From an uncultured Cohaesibacter sp. (lineage in GTDB: Bacteria; Pseudomonadota; Alphaproteobacteria; Rhizobiales; Cohaesibacteraceae): 64,000 nucleotides of DNA. Location: the NCBI RefSeq assembly GCF_963677725.1, contig NZ_OY782507.1, positions 1,612,001-1,676,000 of the forward strand, read 5' to 3'. Below, in pieces: positions 1 to 8,300 of the stretch (position 1 is the first letter of the stretch; each line of letters opens with the position of its first letter). The notes below the pieces were generated by a model. That model was not told the DNA's origin and made no database searches. It saw nothing but the letters and a program-made list of their open reading frames with translations. Position numbers and translations under genes: made by a program.

Positions 1-885
1 TTCGCCAAGTTTGCCGTCAAGAGCATACCTATAATTGGACATCAAAAGATCAGGAAAACGACCTCTCAATCCGGAGCCGTATAGGCCGTAATACACGACG
101 TCATCTTCGGACCAACCGGGCATAGAAAGTTCGAAATTGTCAGCGCCGGCCTTGATAAGATCGACCGCCTTCTGATCAAGCGTGGCAAGCTCGAGCTTGT
201 CTAAGATGGGGCGCACCTTGTCGATTATATAAAAGCCGGTGTACTGATAGTCTTGGGACTGCGAGCGCTTTAACGCTTCCTCCGCCTTTTCTGGAAGGTC
301 CACAAATTCCATCTCTCGCGTGATTTTCAACGCAGTCGCACCAGAGATACTGTTTGCGAAGTCATCATCTTCTATGCGTCCAGAGATACGGCGGACGAGG
401 TCGAGGGCTTCGTCTACCCCGAACGCCTGTAGATCGCGCTGAAAAGCGGATTGTGAAACGCCCTTAATCGCTTCACCAAGATGGCTGCTGTCAATCCGCT
501 TGACCTTCGAATCGTCGAGCGAGTTGATTGCAACCTTCAAACCAAAATCTGACTCGATCTTTGTGTCATCGAGATACTGCCAGCCATGGGCAAACGCTGT
601 GACGAAGATGCGATCAGCATGTTTGAAAACGACGACTGCGCAGGACGTCCTATTCGTAAGCGCCGGTGCCTCATCGAAAACTGTGTTTATGTCAGCCAGC
701 CACCTCGGCGGCTTAGAGGGACCAGGAAAAATATACACTGTCGCCTTGTCACCGAGAGCATCGGACTCCCTCAAGACGGCGTCACCCGCCTGAATTTTCT
801 CTTTTGCGGGTTCGGTGAAGACAGTTTCAAATTCCTCAATGTCAGGCTTTACGAGGTAGAGGGTATAACTCTTAGTCTTCGGCAT
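1..885 (-). CDS. TIGR04141/DUF6119-type sporadic accessory protein, cut off by the window edge
   Basis: The reading frame is open from ATG at 885 down to base 1, giving 295 codons without a stop; the C-terminus lies outside the window. The N-terminus (MPKTKSYTLYLVKPDI), a PPRWL segment at about residue 60, and the block AFAHGWQYLDDTKIESDFGL around residues 97-117, followed by KVAINSLDD and a conserved ID pair, match the pattern I know for the sporadically distributed TIGR04141 (DUF6119) family, whose members are about 500-600 residues long and often sit near restriction or other defence genes. The biochemical role is unknown. It lies downstream of a broken adenine methylase on the same strand, within an element ending at tRNA-His. 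Codon use looks less GC-biased than in the core genes to the right, which fits acquisition by transfer. Family call by eye; function not assigned. Confidence 0.7.
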   Translation of the reverse strand, partial: MPKTKSYTLYLVKPDIEEFETVFTEPAKEKIQAGDAVLRESDALGDKATVYIFPGPSKPPRWLADINTVFDEAPALTNRTSCAVVVFKHADRIFVTAFAHGWQYLDDTKIESDFGLKVAINSLDDSKVKRIDSSHLGEAIKGVSQSAFQRDLQAFGVDEALDLVRRISGRIEDDDFANSISGATALKITREMEFVDLPEKAEEALKRSQSQDYQYTGFYIIDKVRPILDKLELATLDQKAVDLIKAGADNFELSMPGWSEDDVVYYGLYGSGLRGRFPDLLMSNYRYALDGKLGE

Positions 886-1202
886 GGGCTGAACACTCAA
901 AAACAATTTATGGTTGATTTTTGCACGCTCAGCACTTTGAGTCAATTTGGAGTCATTTTTCCCGCAATGAAAGGACAGAGGCTGACTTATGTCGCGACGG
1001 TAGTCCGCTATTTGGACCAAGAAACGTTTTCTAGCATCTGCAGCGAACTTCCGCTTCCCGCCCTCTCGACCATTTAGCCATTTCTGCGGGATGGAAATAT
1101 CGCATCGCATCCAATGTCCAAAAAGTCCGCATTCGACATCTCCGTAGTAAAAGGCGTTGATTGATCAACGATAGTAATCTCCACTTTGATCACATTTCGT
1201 AC
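886..1202. other. Intergenic stretch upstream of the TIGR04141-type gene
   Basis: About 320 bases without a convincing gene. It separates the terminator behind the methylase from the ATG at 885 and therefore should hold the promoter of the TIGR04141-type gene; on the minus strand an AT-rich stretch with a TAAATT-like element lies about 35 bases before the ATG. No repeat or RNA structure stood out. Confidence 0.4.
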
Positions 1203-1233
1203 AAAAAAAGCCCGCCAGATTTCTCCGGCGGGC
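1203..1233 (-). terminator. Rho-independent terminator after the methylase
   Basis: Perfect 7-bp inverted repeat GCCCGCC / GGCGGGC with a 10-base loop, followed on the minus strand by seven T residues. It begins six bases after the methylase stop codon (1239-1241), so it ends the methylase transcript before the TIGR04141-type gene. Confidence 0.85.
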
Positions 1234-1238
1234 AAAAT

Positions 1239-2040
1239 CTAATTGCTGATTATCAGCTCGTGGGCGTCTGTTTGCGACTGTTTCGAGATCGAATATTTAA
1301 GCTCAACCGGCTTGAACTCGAACGCCTTGAAAATCTCCCTGATGTCTGGCGTGTCGTTGATAGACAATAGGAAGCGACCTTCAATGGTCATTAGAATTTC
1401 GGCCATCTCGCCAAAATTTCTCCGCGCGAAAACCCCTTTGCCATAGTCATTCTCTCCCCCAACAGGGCGGATCCTGATAGAACAGAACATTGGCTGCATC
1501 ATAGCAACGGATCAGATCACGCCAGACGAGCTTCTCAACAACCACATGACGCAACCTTTGCGCAGCCTGATGAAGGCTCACCCGAATATCATCGGACTTG
1601 AACCGCGCGCCACGGTCACCGGCAATCCCAAAAGTTTGCCCAGACACCTTGCCACCAAATGCCAGGCGCTGAAGATAGATAAACCGTGCTGCGCATTGGA
1701 TATCGGTCAAATGCCGTGTGTTGCTGGCCTTCATCGCCTCGAATTCTTCGCGAGATCTAACCCAACCATCCAGCTCATCGGTCAGCGCCCGTGGGTGATT
1801 TCTCAGGACCAGCAGGAACGTGACCTGCTCGGCATTGATGATATTGACAACCTCGACACGCGTCTTGACATCCCGGCGATAGAAGACACCTCCCATGCCG
1901 AAAAACACCTCTGCATAGACCTCATGTGGGACTTGATGGATCAGTTGGACAAGCGTGTTTGCCAACTGGCTTTTGCCGCCAAGATAAGGCGCGACGGGAG
2001 CTGCGCGCTCGGCGAGCTCCTCACCAAATAGATTCTCCAT
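1239..2040 (-). pseudogene. D12-class N6-adenine DNA methylase (phage Dam type), frameshifted
   Basis: Two overlapping frames together make one protein of about 265 residues. The first (2040 to 1447) carries the AdoMet motif PYLGGKSQLA at about residue 18, then FGMGGVFYR, an LTDIQCAARFIYLQRLAFGGK block and the catalytic motif written DPPCWG. The second (entering at about 1458 and ending at 1239) continues with GENDYGKGVFARRNF and GRFLLSINDTPDIRE, the usual C-terminal part of phage and island Dam-like methylases. The frame changes inside a run of five C on the plus strand (1456-1460). The motif normally reads DPPYWG, so the catalytic tyrosine is also replaced by cysteine. These enzymes methylate adenine in short DNA sites. 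Either an inactive relic, a sequencing error in the homopolymer, or less likely a programmed shift. Confidence 0.85.
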
Positions 2041-2065
2041 TGAATGTTACTCTGAGAAATGCAAT

Positions 2066-2170
2066 CTACTGCGCGCTGTGCACCTCAGCGGCGAGGATTG
2101 ACCAAAAGTCTGCTTCTGGTCAGGGCAGCGTTAGTTTGGCGATTGGCCGCGGGTTGGAATGTTGCTGCAT
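2066..2170 (-). pseudogene. Small phage-like ORF interrupted by an in-frame TGA
   Basis: A good ribosome binding site (AGGAGATCGGA directly before ATG at 2168-2170) starts an ORF beginning MQQHSNPRPIAKLTLP. It meets TGA at 2120-2122 and then stays open in the same frame (PEADFWSILAAEVHSAQ) to TAG at 2066-2068, 26 bases before the methylase start. The strong start signal and position between phage-like genes suggest a small gene damaged by a nonsense mutation, but it is short and no homologue is recognised. It could also simply be a 16-codon leader. Confidence 0.35.
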
Positions 2171-2217
2171 TCCGATCTCCTAGACTCAATGGCGAGGAGA
2201 TATCGCGTTTCGAGATC

Positions 2218-2591
2218 TCAACCACAGGCGATCATGCGCACTTCTTTTAAGGCCGTGAACAGGTTGGAGACCTTTTGCAAGAATTGCTCGGTGATATACA
2301 TGCCACCGGCAGCGGTGTTGAGTTCACCCTTTTCAACAAATTTTTATCGCGCCATCCACTTCATCATAGGCTTTTTCGATTTCCAGTTTCATGGCTTCAA
2401 AAACTGAGAGGCTCTTAAGATCGTCAATCCGCACGGTCAGTGCGCTGATCTGGCTTTCAAGAACAGCGTTTGATGTCTTGAGATCAGACACAGCGACATA
2501 GCCGCCAATAATCCCAGCTACTGTGGTGGTCCTGACAATATGCACCACGGTCCGTTCGATAGCACCGGGGTTAGATGCTGGTGTGTCGCTC
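2218..2591 (-). pseudogene. Phage-like one-span membrane protein, frameshifted
   Basis: Starts MSDTPASNPGAIERTVVHIV at ATG 2589-2591, which overlaps the stop of the upstream gene as ATGA, so translational coupling fixes this start. A hydrophobic stretch at about residues 23-35 is followed by a helical, likely coiled region. The frame stops at 2333-2335 right after an A5 run (T5 on the plus strand, 2341-2345). Removing one A joins it to an open frame reading FVEKGELNTAAGGMYITEQF and onward to a stop at 2218-2220, giving about 124 residues. The continuation looks protein-like, so I read this as one gene split by a homopolymer indel. Function unknown; probably a prophage gene. Confidence 0.5.
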
Positions 2592-2781
2592 ATTTTCGCT
2601 TCCCGCCATAGTCTTTCTGGATTTTTGCATAATGGTCGGCACACCATTGAATGCGCTTATTCTCGTGTTCTCGCAGGATTTCCCAGCGGCGCTGCGTTGC
2701 CCAAACCGGCTCACCCTTTTCCAGGATCGCCTTGGCCATCAAGTCGCGACAATAAGGAGGCCAGTTTGGCAGATTGACCAT
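2590..2781 (-). CDS. Small phage-like hypothetical protein (63 residues)
   Basis: Begins MVNLPNWPPYCRDLMAKAIL and ends in a basic tail (KIQKDYGGKRK). An in-frame TGA lies just upstream of the ATG, so translation cannot start earlier. The stop codon overlaps the start of the following gene (ATGA), typical of compact phage operons. Aromatic and basic residues dominate (WPPYC, WATQRRW, WCADHY), but no named family is recognised. It belongs to the string of same-strand small genes between tRNA-His and the adenine methylase. Confidence 0.5.
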   Translation of the reverse strand: MVNLPNWPPYCRDLMAKAILEKGEPVWATQRRWEILREHENKRIQWCADHYAKIQKDYGGKRK

Positions 2782-2996
2782 GCCGTCAAATCATGGGCGC
2801 GCATCAGCAAGTCTTCGAGATTGCTTCTCTGTTCCAACTCAAAGGAAGGGACATAGTCATAGCGCCACGCTGTTGCAAATAGCGGTGCCCTTCCCCAATC
2901 ATGCGAGATTTTTACACAAAACAGAGCGCAGCCAAACGACGACTGCATTGTGCTGCAGACAGTGATTTGATTTGTCGCTTCTTTGGGGAAAAGCAT
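2739..2996 (-). CDS. Hypothetical protein next to tRNA-His, possibly a truncated gene
   Basis: An 85-codon frame starting 11 bases inside the tRNA-His 3' end. Its second half (WRYDYVPSFELEQRSNLEDLL) reads like genuine protein and it overlaps the next gene by 43 bases, while its first 40 residues look random. The likely explanation is that a phage gene was fused to non-coding sequence at the integration junction, or that the true start is internal. No family recognised. Confidence 0.3.
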   Translation of the reverse strand: MLFPKEATNQITVCSTMQSSFGCALFCVKISHDWGRAPLFATAWRYDYVPSFELEQRSNLEDLLMRAHDLTAWSICQTGLLIVAT

Positions 2997-3006
2997 CAGG
3001 GTGAAA

Positions 3007-3083
3007 TGGTACAGTCGGGTGGATTCGAACCACCGACCTTCGGAGCCACAATCCGACGCTCTAACCTACTGAGCTACGACTGC
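3007..3083 (-). tRNA. tRNA-His (anticodon GUG)
   Basis: The minus strand folds as a complete cloverleaf of 77 bases including an encoded CCA (3007-3009): acceptor GCAGTCG pairing with CGACTGT, D arm GCTC/GAGC, anticodon stem TCGGA/TCCGA around TTGTGGC, and T arm GGTGG-TTCGAAT-CCACC. The anticodon is GTG (histidine). The gene has A73 and no encoded G-1 opposite C73, the alphaproteobacterial exception to the usual histidine identity rule; the first acceptor pair is a G-U wobble. Its 3' end faces the accessory genes on the left, the common geometry of a tRNA integration site. Confidence 0.95.
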
Positions 3084-3220
3084 ACAACACCTGAATGTGG
3101 TGGGTTTATTAGGCGGGCTGGGAGGCAAATGCAAGGGTTGATTTCACCTCTGCCCACAGCTTGTCAAAAAAATGACATTGTAGACGGGCTTTTCCAAAGC
3201 TTAACCCACCCTGCGAACGC

Positions 3221-5364: not shown

Positions 5365-8300
5365 ATGAATTTTTCTCGCCCGGCCAGTTTGGCCATGCCC
5401 TATCTGACGCTGACCGCGCATCCGACCATCGGAGCGGTCCTGCTCGATTCGCGCCCAGCCTGGGTGTGGAATGGCGAGGGCAACCGAGTCTTGTGGGCAA
5501 ATGCGGCGGGTTTGGCTTTCTTCGGCGAGACCAGCATGGATGCCATGCTGGATCGCAGTTTCGGTGATGTTCATCCCGCGCGGCGTCATTTGGCACGTCT
5601 GGCACGCAACGCACGCGCCAATGCACCGATGCTGGACCGGCTGCGGTTTTTCCTGGGCACCGAGGCGGTTACATGCAGTTGCCTTTGCAAGCGCCTTGAG
5701 GTCGAGGGCGAGGCGGTTCTGTTGGTGATTGCCATGGATCATCCGGCCTTTGGCACGGACGAGATAGAGCGCACTCAGGCGCTGCTTGATGCACTGGCTG
5801 CAGAGCGGGATATTGCTGCTGTTTGTCTTGATGACACACTGACCCCAATTGCCAAGTCGCATGACACGTCAGAAGCGAATTCTGAAACAAGTCCTGAAGC
5901 CAAGGTCGGGGCGCTTGATACACTTCTGGCTGATCCGGATAGTCTTAAAGATCTGGCCACGGGCGCCGACACACCCTTGCGTCTGGTCTCAAAGCAACTT
6001 GGAGAAGAAGAAACCAGCCCTGTTGCGGCCCTCGTTCGCATTGGCGAAGGAGAACATACGCGCTATCTGCTGGTTCATTATCCGAGCCAGAGCGAGGCGG
6101 ACCGTCTGTCGGAAAATCGGGCGCTGTTCATGGCTGAGCTTGGCGATAGCTCAGAGGCAGAAGAAGACGAGGCCGCGATTGAACAGGGAGCCGATATTTT
6201 TGCCTCGACCTTCGGCATGCGCGATGTGGCGCAGAGCATGGACCATTTGACAGCGGAACTGAAAAAAGCAGACAAGGTGCGGGATAGCGACTTGTCCCCT
6301 TTTCATGCTGATGGCACGTCCGATATCCCGGTAGCCCCTGATATTGAGGTGAAAAGGTCCAATATCTATACCCTGCACAGCAACAAAGATGGTGCGAACA
6401 CAAATGAGCGGCCAAAGACACCATTGACCAATGCGGGCACGGCAAATCTGGCCGACGCTTTGGACAAGGGTGGAATTTATCACTTCGTCTGGGAAAGCGA
6501 CGAGGTCGATCGCTTCAGCTATGTTTCGAACGATCTGGCCAAGGCAGTCGGGCCGGCCCATGCGGCGATCATCGGCAAAACCTGGTCGGAGTTGGCTGAC
6601 GCGCTGCAAATGGATCCCGACGGCAAGGTCGCTCGTGCATTTGAAAGCCGGGATACCTGGGTGGGACTGATGGTCCAATGGCCGGTAGCCGGAACATCCC
6701 TCAGTGTCGAGGTGGAACTGACCGGATTGCCGATTTTCGGGCGCTATCACGGTTTCAAGGGCTTCCGGGGCTTTGGCATGTGCAACACGCGCCATAAGCA
6801 GGCCTCCAAAGGCAGCGGCGAGGATATGCAAAGCGTTACAAACCGCCCACATTCGGACACAACGCTGCCACAGTTTCACGACAATAAGGAAATAATGTCT
6901 GATGAATTGCTGCGCGCGGTCAATGATGCCGTCGCTGCAGCGGAATCCCTTATTTCGCCTGATGTGGGCCTCGGCAGAAAAGCGCAGTCGCCACATTCGG
7001 ATTCGAATGGAGACCGCACCATGTCGGATGACCAGTTTGAGATTGGAGGCAACGAGTCCAACCAAACCCTCACGGGCTTTGGCACGGCGCAGTTTTTTGC
7101 TTCTTCTACTGGCGACGATACGGACAAGGGCGGCTCATCCTCCAGTTCCAACACGCAAAATGGCAATGGTGAAGACCCCTACCATCGGGTGCGTGACTTG
7201 CTCACCGAGTCGGCCCATGGCGTGAAAACTTTTGATCCCAAATCAAACCCACCCTCTTGCGACAGCACCGATGACAGCCAGGAGCTGAGCGAAGGCGAAA
7301 TGGACGCCTTTGACGAAATTGCCGCCGCACTGAGTGGATCGGACTTTGACCGTAATCTCCCCGAAGAGGAGATTGACGAGGATTACGAAGATTTCGATGA
7401 TCCGGTTGCCTTGATAGACGATGATGACGATGGCAATGGCGAATTGCCGTCTGTGTCGCAGACCGTCTCCCAAGATGCGGAAAAACCAACCAGTCAAGAC
7501 ATTGATCAGGCGCGTCTGCATCAGGCGCTCCAGACCCGTTCGCGAGGGGATGCCACACTGAAATCCGCAACCAGTTCCGCGTTTCGTGAAATATTCGAAA
7601 TGGATCCAGCCTTCCGCCATATGCGCAAGAGATTGGCACAGGCCTCCAACAAACCACAGGCTGAAACCGGCGAGCAGAGCGAACAGGCCCGCGAGCATCA
7701 AAAACTGCTTGAGGCCGTTCAGGCCTTGGCGGATGGCGAAGACTTGCATGCCAAAAAATCAGCCCAAGAGTTCACAGACAAAGACGATGCGGCGATGACG
7801 GAAGACCTGTCTCAGGCCTCTGTTTCAGAAAAGCCGGACCAGCATGAGAATGTGTCGGACTTGGCCGATCTACCGGACTCTGATGCATCTGATGCGGATC
7901 AACCAGACACTGAACTGGTGGCGCTTGATTTGCCGGAAGCCACGCCTGAAGAGCAGGAAATGGAACTTTCCGAACTTGCCTTGCTGGACGGGGTGACGGA
8001 AGACGATGCGCGCGAGCCACTCACAGAAGATGACCCATTGTCTCAGGCGGACGACGCATCCGGGCAAGAGGTACTGGAAGACGATGGTGTGACTGCTGCC
8101 TCACCGGCTCTCGCGGTTGCCACGGCTGCGGGCGTTGCAGCGATTTCAGGGACCAAATTGTGGGACAGGACCGATGGGTCTTCGCCGCTGATCACCCTGC
8201 TCAACAAGCTCCCTGTCGCGATGATCGTGTCTGCAGAAAACAGCATATTGTTTGCTTCGCGCAAAGCACTGGCTCTGCTCGGATTTGAAAGCGACAAAGC

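Follow-up and report, generated by a model that had tools for sequence, protein, structure and literature searches.

The tRNA-His locus and its DUF6119 gene

The subject of this analysis is a gene of the TIGR04141/DUF6119 family that lies, together with phage-derived genes adjoining a tRNA-His gene, at the left edge of a stretch of 64,000 nucleotides (the window; bases 1612001-1676000 of the single 4.63 Mb contig, NZ_OY782507.1, that makes up the genome of an uncultured Cohaesibacter sp.). About 60 kb to the left of the window was also analysed, and coordinates headed L007 refer to a stretch that spans the left edge of the window. The tRNA-His gene is the sole tRNA found in the window by ARAGORN, and leftward from it, all on the minus strand, come open reading frames (ORFs) of 85, 63 and 104 amino acids (aa), a D12-class adenine methylase in two frames and the DUF6119 gene (Table 1). 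Beyond the DUF6119 gene, to the left of the window and still on the minus strand, lie the gene for a 574-aa GIY-YIG/T5orf172 protein and then an IS110 transposase gene (L007:12629-13687); the gene past the transposase reads like a chemotaxis receptor and was taken as a putative host gene. An earlier note on this DNA had described the 3' end of the tRNA as facing short overlapping genes and the first 3 kb as different in character from the rest, and both descriptions hold: the ORFs left of the tRNA do overlap on the minus strand, the genes are phage-derived, and the guanine-plus-cytosine (GC) content of the 5.9 kb adjoining the tRNA (L007:14123-20000, of which half lies beyond the window edge) is 49.4%, compared with 55.1% in window 3084-64000, a modest difference given that 1.5-kb blocks of the latter vary with a standard deviation of 2.6 points and range from 49.9 to 59.9%.

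The full DUF6119 gene (L007:16242-17885) encodes 547 aa with no internal stop and is intact. The family identity proposed in the earlier note from the 295-residue fragment is confirmed over nearly the full length, the protein matching TIGR04141 over residues 8-542 with 458 bits (cut-off 35) and the Pfam model DUF6119 over residues 8-543 with 445 bits (cut-off 27), and the residues that are invariant in alignments of the family are kept. DUF6119 is the only Pfam family above its cut-off in the full-length protein, which shows no PrrC-type, DNA-reader or motor domain, and a comparison with the PADLOC 2023 models gave no family at an expectation value (E) of 1. The family was also rightly called sporadic, as it is present in one of 41 near genomes (the window's own) and in 10 of 385 genomes of the class, its own included. 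The window protein is a full-length member far above both cut-offs, but the models themselves call the family only sporadic or of unknown function, TIGR04141 being named for its sporadic distribution and DUF6119 for its lack of a known function, and most of the branch in which the window copy falls is orphan. No HsdR was found in the stretch searched, namely the approximately 60 kb to the left and 17 kb of the window.

The gene in the window is an intact orphan, and members of its family recur in type I restriction operons. Positions 1-3006 of the window form the part nearest the tRNA of a decayed remnant, left by an old prophage or island at a tRNA-His insertion site, with the DUF6119 gene as a single intact cargo gene. 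The local element is in itself an ordinary decayed prophage remnant, and the point of interest at the locus is the DUF6119 gene and not the remnant around it.

Table 1. Features at the tRNA-His end of the window and in the adjoining left flank (positions are those of the window unless headed L007)
Feature	Position	Strand	Basis or remark
574-aa protein with C-terminal GIY-YIG/T5orf172 domain	L007:14123-15847, left of window	minus	
DUF6119 gene, N-terminal 295 codons	1-885 (likely start 885)	minus	remainder L007:16242-17000, left of window
D12 methylase, C-terminal piece, other frame	1239-1502	minus	dam profile 195-265, weak, E 0.007; phrog_56 247-322, E 1e-14
D12-class phage adenine methylase, N-terminal piece	1447-2040	minus	PF02086, 50 bits; phrog_56
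Small ORF, 104 aa, possibly a phage gene	2333-2647 (probable start 2593)	minus	weak PHROG matches only (spanin, E 0.02)
63-aa phage gene	2590-2781	minus	relative in Rhizobium phage RHph_Y60 (38.6%, E 8e-5)
Probable tyrosine integrase relic, 85-aa ORF	2739-2996 (homologous part 2783-2896)	minus	match to tRNA-His integrase of closest relative (G008)
tRNA trailer	2982-3006	minus	common to far (host-side) end of G008 island; 54/57 over 2982-3038
tRNA-His (GTG anticodon)	3007-3083	minus	ARAGORN; 3' end (3007) faces left, toward remnant

DUF6119 in type I restriction operons

The 97 DUF6119 neighbourhoods that were compared came from 8 plasmids, 9 genomes of the class and 80 public-genome loci, the last being the 80 that most resembled the query among 157 confirmed loci. 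Nine of 23 plasmid matches were fetched, and a Vibrio plasmid (L083) and a phage (L075), neither of which had an Hsd match when scanned, stood outside the neighbourhood counts; two records (L093 and L106) had no DUF6119 match in the neighbourhood search. Linkage was scored with profiles built from DUF6119-hsd loci at an HsdR threshold of E < 1e-15, so that one locus (L142) with a weak HsdR match (1.8e-10) was scored as unlinked. L088/L157 and L077/L144 are copies, and all four are within the counts of 95 loci given here. An HsdR was present in the fetched stretch of 41 of the 95 loci, downstream on the same strand in 30, upstream on the same strand in five, upstream on the opposite strand in four and downstream on the opposite strand in two. 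The DUF6119 gene stands directly before hsdR in 29 of the 95, and in 20 there is a stop-start overlap of 4 nucleotides (nt). Among the loci with either 5 kb on both sides or an HsdR, which include the window's own copy and one copy pair, 40 of 80 were linked, a fraction that is not a census since the public-genome loci were selected by similarity to the query.

The arrangement is seen most fully on plasmids of Mameliella, Mesorhizobium and Paracoccus albus, where the annotated order is hsdS-hsdM-hsdS-DUF6119-hsdR-SprT metalloprotease, and a plasmid of Actibacterium has hsdS-hsdS-DUF6119-hsdR-SprT with pieces of hsdM ahead. In one operon the PADLOC models recognised the R, M and S subunits of type I restriction, and in a further three (the Methanosaeta, Ilyomonas and Vreelandella records) the R subunit; the DUF6119 protein of one plasmid member (L076) had no PADLOC match at 0.001. 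The family recurs as part of type I restriction operons, in which the usual order is hsdS-DUF6119-hsdR, often followed by an SprT-type metalloprotease gene, which a profile search placed in at least 27 of the 97 neighbourhoods. The same-operon place next to hsdS or hsdR is found in several lineages, including Methanosaeta (L123) and Ilyomonas (L155), and it is this repetition, in distantly related bacteria as well as an archaeon and with several different gene orders, that makes DUF6119 a directly testable defence component.

As background, the same Hsd profiles matched none of 20 tRNA-His stretches from relatives (372 kb) and none of three stretches of the window's own genome, and they matched all six loci already known to be linked, from which the profiles had in part been built. 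As a yardstick, there were 72 HsdM-family matches above 100 bits in 190 genomes of the class, some of them pieces of one gene, and at a guessed 3 Mb per genome a chance match in a 20-kb stretch would be expected in a fraction of a percent of cases. Restriction genes cluster in mobile regions, so these background controls may be too low, but such clustering does not account for overlapping genes.

The history of the association was followed on a tree of 95 proteins, constructed by a quick method and leaving out the copy L088, in which 40 proteins were linked, 40 unlinked and 15 unscored owing to short flanks. Restriction linkage requires at least 16 changes on this tree, compared with an average of 27 for shuffled labels, and none of 500 shuffles was as low; on this tree the hsd link is one that has been gained or lost many times, in different gene orders. 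Copies are also found on phages and other mobile DNA. In Pseudomonas phage vB_PaeS-D14B the DUF6119 gene is beside an integrase, in one viral contig (L192) it follows a lysozyme and a DUF2514 gene, and in another (L193) it is accompanied by an integrase-like gene and a lone HSDR_N (type I restriction) protein (L193:3739-4851). The nearest relative of the window protein, from Loktanella (L094), has a DarT-domain gene directly downstream (L094:11738-12268).

Other genes recur in these neighbourhoods. The hsd operons with DUF6119 also hold PDC-S14/DUF4357, RhuM or SprT genes (L118:7720-8679, L164:3692-4750 and L076:12853-13569). A family of 446-464 aa precedes DUF6119 at L080:6520-7860, L121, L124-L127, L129 and L135, and overlaps it by 4 nt in all seven loci scored as immediate neighbours, with or without hsd genes; the one member scanned had no Pfam or PADLOC match. 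It is possible that this family and DUF6119 form a two-gene module.

Predicted fold and proposed role of the family

AlphaFold2 was run with 52 sequences on the Loktanella homologue, whose identity to the window protein is 76%, and the predicted local distance difference test (pLDDT) score was 84 for the whole chain; the C-terminal domain alone gave a pLDDT of 92 and a predicted template modelling score of 0.88. In the model the elements of this domain run in the order helix, four strands, three helices and strand-helix-strand. The core of PD-(D/E)XK nucleases is alpha-beta-beta-beta-alpha-beta, and the predicted topology fits, in that it contains this order of elements. Six residues (E389, D406, E421, D424, H435 and K437 in the numbering of the window protein) are invariant in 96 of 96 sequences, a set of rows that includes the window protein itself and near-copies and in which one row is gapped from residue 443 onwards. 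In the model E389 belongs to the first long helix, E421 and D424 lie at strands two and three, H435-x-K437 is in strand four, and S443, S447, H448 and Q452 are on the helix that follows. On account of its topology and motif the C-terminal domain resembles a nuclease of the PD-(D/E)XK type whose active site has been altered to HxK. The structural matches listed for the domain (50 of 842) include HamA of Hachiman (8vxy, E 0.036), CdiA-CT, Hef and SduA of Shedu (8ps4, E 0.75), all of which we take to be PD-(D/E)XK nucleases and none of which is significant, whilst the best viral structure match of the whole chain was a phage exonuclease (E 0.002). HamA and SduA differ from DUF6119 in that no sequence link to them was found and in that DUF6119 has HxK instead of ExK.

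In its position DUF6119 is reminiscent of PrrC of the type IC EcoprrI locus, where the gene order is hsdM-hsdS-prrC-hsdR: each is an accessory gene within a type I hsd operon, and for each the proposed logic is that of a latent effector tied to a restriction enzyme. The literature on the Escherichia coli prr locus describes prrC as a latent nuclease gene embedded in a type I operon, its product being kept inactive by the restriction enzyme and freed by a phage inhibitor of restriction (PMC3874165, PMC2610378, PMC12707154), and in the paper by Makarova and others such coupling is proposed as general, with restriction endonuclease (REase)-fold nucleases among the genes of type I and type III loci (PMC3506569). 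PrrC consists of an ABC-ATPase and an anticodon nuclease, whereas DUF6119 has no such domain by Pfam and has a C-terminal domain that is PD-(D/E)XK-like in the model; furthermore, PrrC is reported to be invariably linked to type IC systems (PMC2610378), whereas DUF6119 is often unlinked. RloC is closer to DUF6119 in this respect, being sporadic, at times in type I loci and often unlinked, with linkage to type I or III loci in 8 of 73 according to the same paper (PMC2610378), but it combines a Rad50-like ATPase with an anticodon nuclease, and no such domain is found in DUF6119 by Pfam. In the open-access literature, as covered by name searches and by the titles and opening lines of abstracts on type I operons, no description of a link between DUF6119/TIGR04141 and restriction was found, subscription papers and preprints lying outside that scope; a search of PMC12255303, a likely paper, for DUF, TIGR0 and SprT gave no mention of the link. 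An earlier notice is possible, as the unnamed REase-fold families of PMC3506569 could include DUF6119.

The reading preferred here, to which a probability of about 0.42 is given, is that the locus is a decayed remnant with an intact DUF6119 gene and that the family is a restriction-coupled nuclease effector, PrrC-like in position. DUF6119 would be a nuclease tied to the restriction enzyme, with HsdM, HsdS and HsdR either keeping it in check or acting together with it, and it would be triggered when a phage disables or evades restriction, as with PrrC in EcoprrI. Since its branch is a mostly orphan one, the window copy would work by itself or respond to a separate trigger. A coupled effector is judged likelier than either an auxiliary or modification-dependent nuclease or a regulator, because DUF6119 is placed like PrrC and, if the predicted fold is right, carries a nuclease domain of another class. 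Were this so, a different enzyme would be serving the PrrC type of logic, and a purpose would suggest itself for the orphan copies on phages and islands. A bolder form of the proposal, in which TIGR04141/DUF6119 would be a class of restriction-guarded effector without a description in the literature searched, a nuclease with an E/D/ExxD/HxK centre, sited between hsdS and hsdR and firing when type I restriction is blocked, the orphan branches being stand-alone defences on phages and islands, is considered rather unlikely.

A number of observations weigh against a coupled nuclease. There was no HsdR in 54 of the 95 loci, some of them owing to short contigs, and both the selection of loci by similarity and the clustering of restriction genes in mobile regions bear on how the linkage is to be read. 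The branch of the window protein comprises 11 rows, of which one is linked, five (its own included) are unlinked and five could not be scored, and the window's own genome has no match to PF02384, the HsdM family. As for the nuclease assignment, ExxD is present, but every one of the 96 rows has H-x-K where the canonical motif has D/E-x-K, so that the PD-(D/E)XK motif is incomplete. Foldseek gave no match reaching E 0.001 for either the whole chain or the domain, the best for the domain being Mglu (0.031), which we take to be a glutaminase. A Pfam scan of 52 domains gave no named nuclease family, a sequence search of the PDB gave one match at E 1, and a comparison of profiles with HsdR N-termini failed at E 0.18. 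Finally, Pfam shows no PrrC-type domain in DUF6119, whose likeness to PrrC is one of position.

Several of the same facts can be accommodated in other ways. The place between hsdS and hsdR with overlapping genes, and the nuclease-like C-terminal domain, would suit an auxiliary restriction subunit, that is a modification-dependent or second nuclease that hits phage DNA which the type I enzyme cannot cut, destroying the invader and not the cell, and the phage and island copies would fit a stand-alone restriction enzyme; the altered HxK motif and the lack of any known DNA-reader or motor domain in a protein where only DUF6119 passes the Pfam cut-off make this explanation an unlikely one. That same histidine, replacing the canonical acidic residue in every row, is what would be expected if the nuclease-like domain bound DNA with no cutting, and DUF6119 might then be a regulator or protector of restriction, concerned with alleviation or with guarding a new host while methylation is established. 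Such operons do occur on plasmids, where control of establishment would be useful, and the frequent SprT-like metalloprotease gene would also be in keeping with regulation. A fully invariant E/D/ExxD/HxK set is, however, more typical of a catalyst, and the window copy persists in a genome with no HsdM-family match, so that a regulatory role is judged less likely still than an auxiliary nuclease. It might lastly be supposed that DUF6119 is a hitchhiker in defence islands with no functional tie to restriction, as more than half of the copies examined lack an HsdR in the available stretch; the overlap of genes, the place inside the operon, the several arrangements and the distant lineages, including Methanosaeta and Ilyomonas, render this very improbable.

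The remnant and its insertion site

The claim of the earlier note that an island or prophage had integrated in tRNA-His stands in part. The closest relative (G008) has an intact tyrosine integrase directly downstream of the same tRNA-His (L042:14424-15863; Pfam integrase) and, at the far end of its island on another contig, an exact 38-bp copy of window 3001-3038, and tRNA-His is therefore a real attachment site in this genus. At the window locus the surroundings are phage-derived, a probable integrase relic is in a fitting place and orientation, and the genes on the 3' side of tRNA-His are absent from relatives, just a few short pieces of the left flank aligning to 20 tRNA-His stretches from 19 related genomes. 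What did not stand is the expectation of an integrase or a tRNA-end repeat within about 100 kb, which the note had itself taken as decisive. No 12-mer of window 2951-3100 is repeated in the approximately 60 kb to the left, even with up to two mismatches allowed the genome has only one copy of the 22-mer from the tRNA-His 3' end, and there is no integrase-family match within 220 kb of tRNA-His, the closest PF00589 matches being at 1393516 and 1905696 (221 kb to the left and 291 kb to the right). The island reading is tenable only if the insertion is old and has decayed.

The 85-aa ORF resembles residues 115-145 of the G008 integrase (45% across 31 aa; small searches gave E 4e-4 and 8e-3), and both have the same orientation and adjoin tRNA-His; given so short a match, and no Pfam match at all for the ORF, it is graded only as a probable relic of a tyrosine integrase. 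A second relic (L007:3075-3188, genome 1598075-1598188), with 92% DNA identity over 114 bp to window 2783-2896, lies some 16.6 kb to the left of the first and in the opposite orientation. A search of 121 genomes with the second relic returned only the two copies in the window's own genome and the G008 integrase (E 7.6e-5); among those genomes no other intact relative of the window relic was found. The two relics may represent two related insertions or one rearranged insertion.

Past the far end of the G008 island there is a tRNA fragment, then a trailer as in the window, and then, in order, a 56-bp stretch that is 93% identical (52/56) to window 2574-2629, around the start of the 104-aa ORF. 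The window trailer matches this far, host-side trailer of G008 and not the island-side one, and a clean attachment junction is therefore no longer visible. Since the trailer and the 56-bp stretch are common to both, the remnant seems to be older than the split of the two lineages, G008 having apparently taken a newer island at the same tRNA. The G008 island thus shares its tRNA gene and a related integrase with the window locus, but differs in its intact integrase and 38-bp repeat and in that the G008 genome has no DUF6119 match. It also carries two large overlapping genes (L042:4811-6655 and 6648-8123) that have no Pfam match, and the impression from their sequences is that the C-termini are diverged tyrosine recombinases.

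The matches of the 63-aa ORF and the methylase are consistent with genes of a temperate phage, and the parent phage is identifiable only in part. Seven Rhizobium phage records contain relatives of the 63-aa ORF, in one of which (RHph_Y60) the relative stands two genes after lysozyme, and two Synechococcus phages have weaker ones; the ORF had no relative in the viral contigs, and the shortened 104-aa ORF had no match in phages. Of 140 phage records matched by the methylase, the 12 listed have methylases 42-48% identical to it, amongst them those of Sinorhizobium, Ochrobactrum and Rhizobium phages (43-47%), and one viral contig was matched. Its frame is broken near 1447-1502, which rules it out as a working anti-restriction gene, and the suggestion that it formed part of a defence or anti-restriction module falls, the broken gene being no evidence for a working defence pair. 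The link of the locus to defence rests on the place of the DUF6119 family in type I restriction operons elsewhere and not on the methylase.

The GIY-YIG protein to the left of the DUF6119 gene was considered as a partner and rejected, as it had no relative at E 1e-5 in the 97 DUF6119 neighbourhoods; an annotated GIY-YIG gene is present at L080 and was unmatched in that search. The 574-aa protein is rare, being matched in 6 of 289 genomes of the class, its own included, with the other five matching the C-terminal part only. Its relatives are a protein on the Acetobacter orientalis plasmid pAOF1 (57% over 97%) and one in Methylorubrum (26% over residues 39-459), and its PADLOC matches (PDC-S57 and PD-Lambda-1) are confined to the C-terminal domain, the N-terminal part having no assignment. 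Of nine plasmid matches only that in Acetobacter covers more than 80%, and there is no annotated DUF6119 in the stretch shown. A putative ferritin-like gene (genome 1594498-1595001, L008:19498-20000) lies 20 kb from tRNA-His here; in 10 of the 20 stretches from relatives it aligns near tRNA-His and is inverted there, from which it follows that the region has been rearranged.

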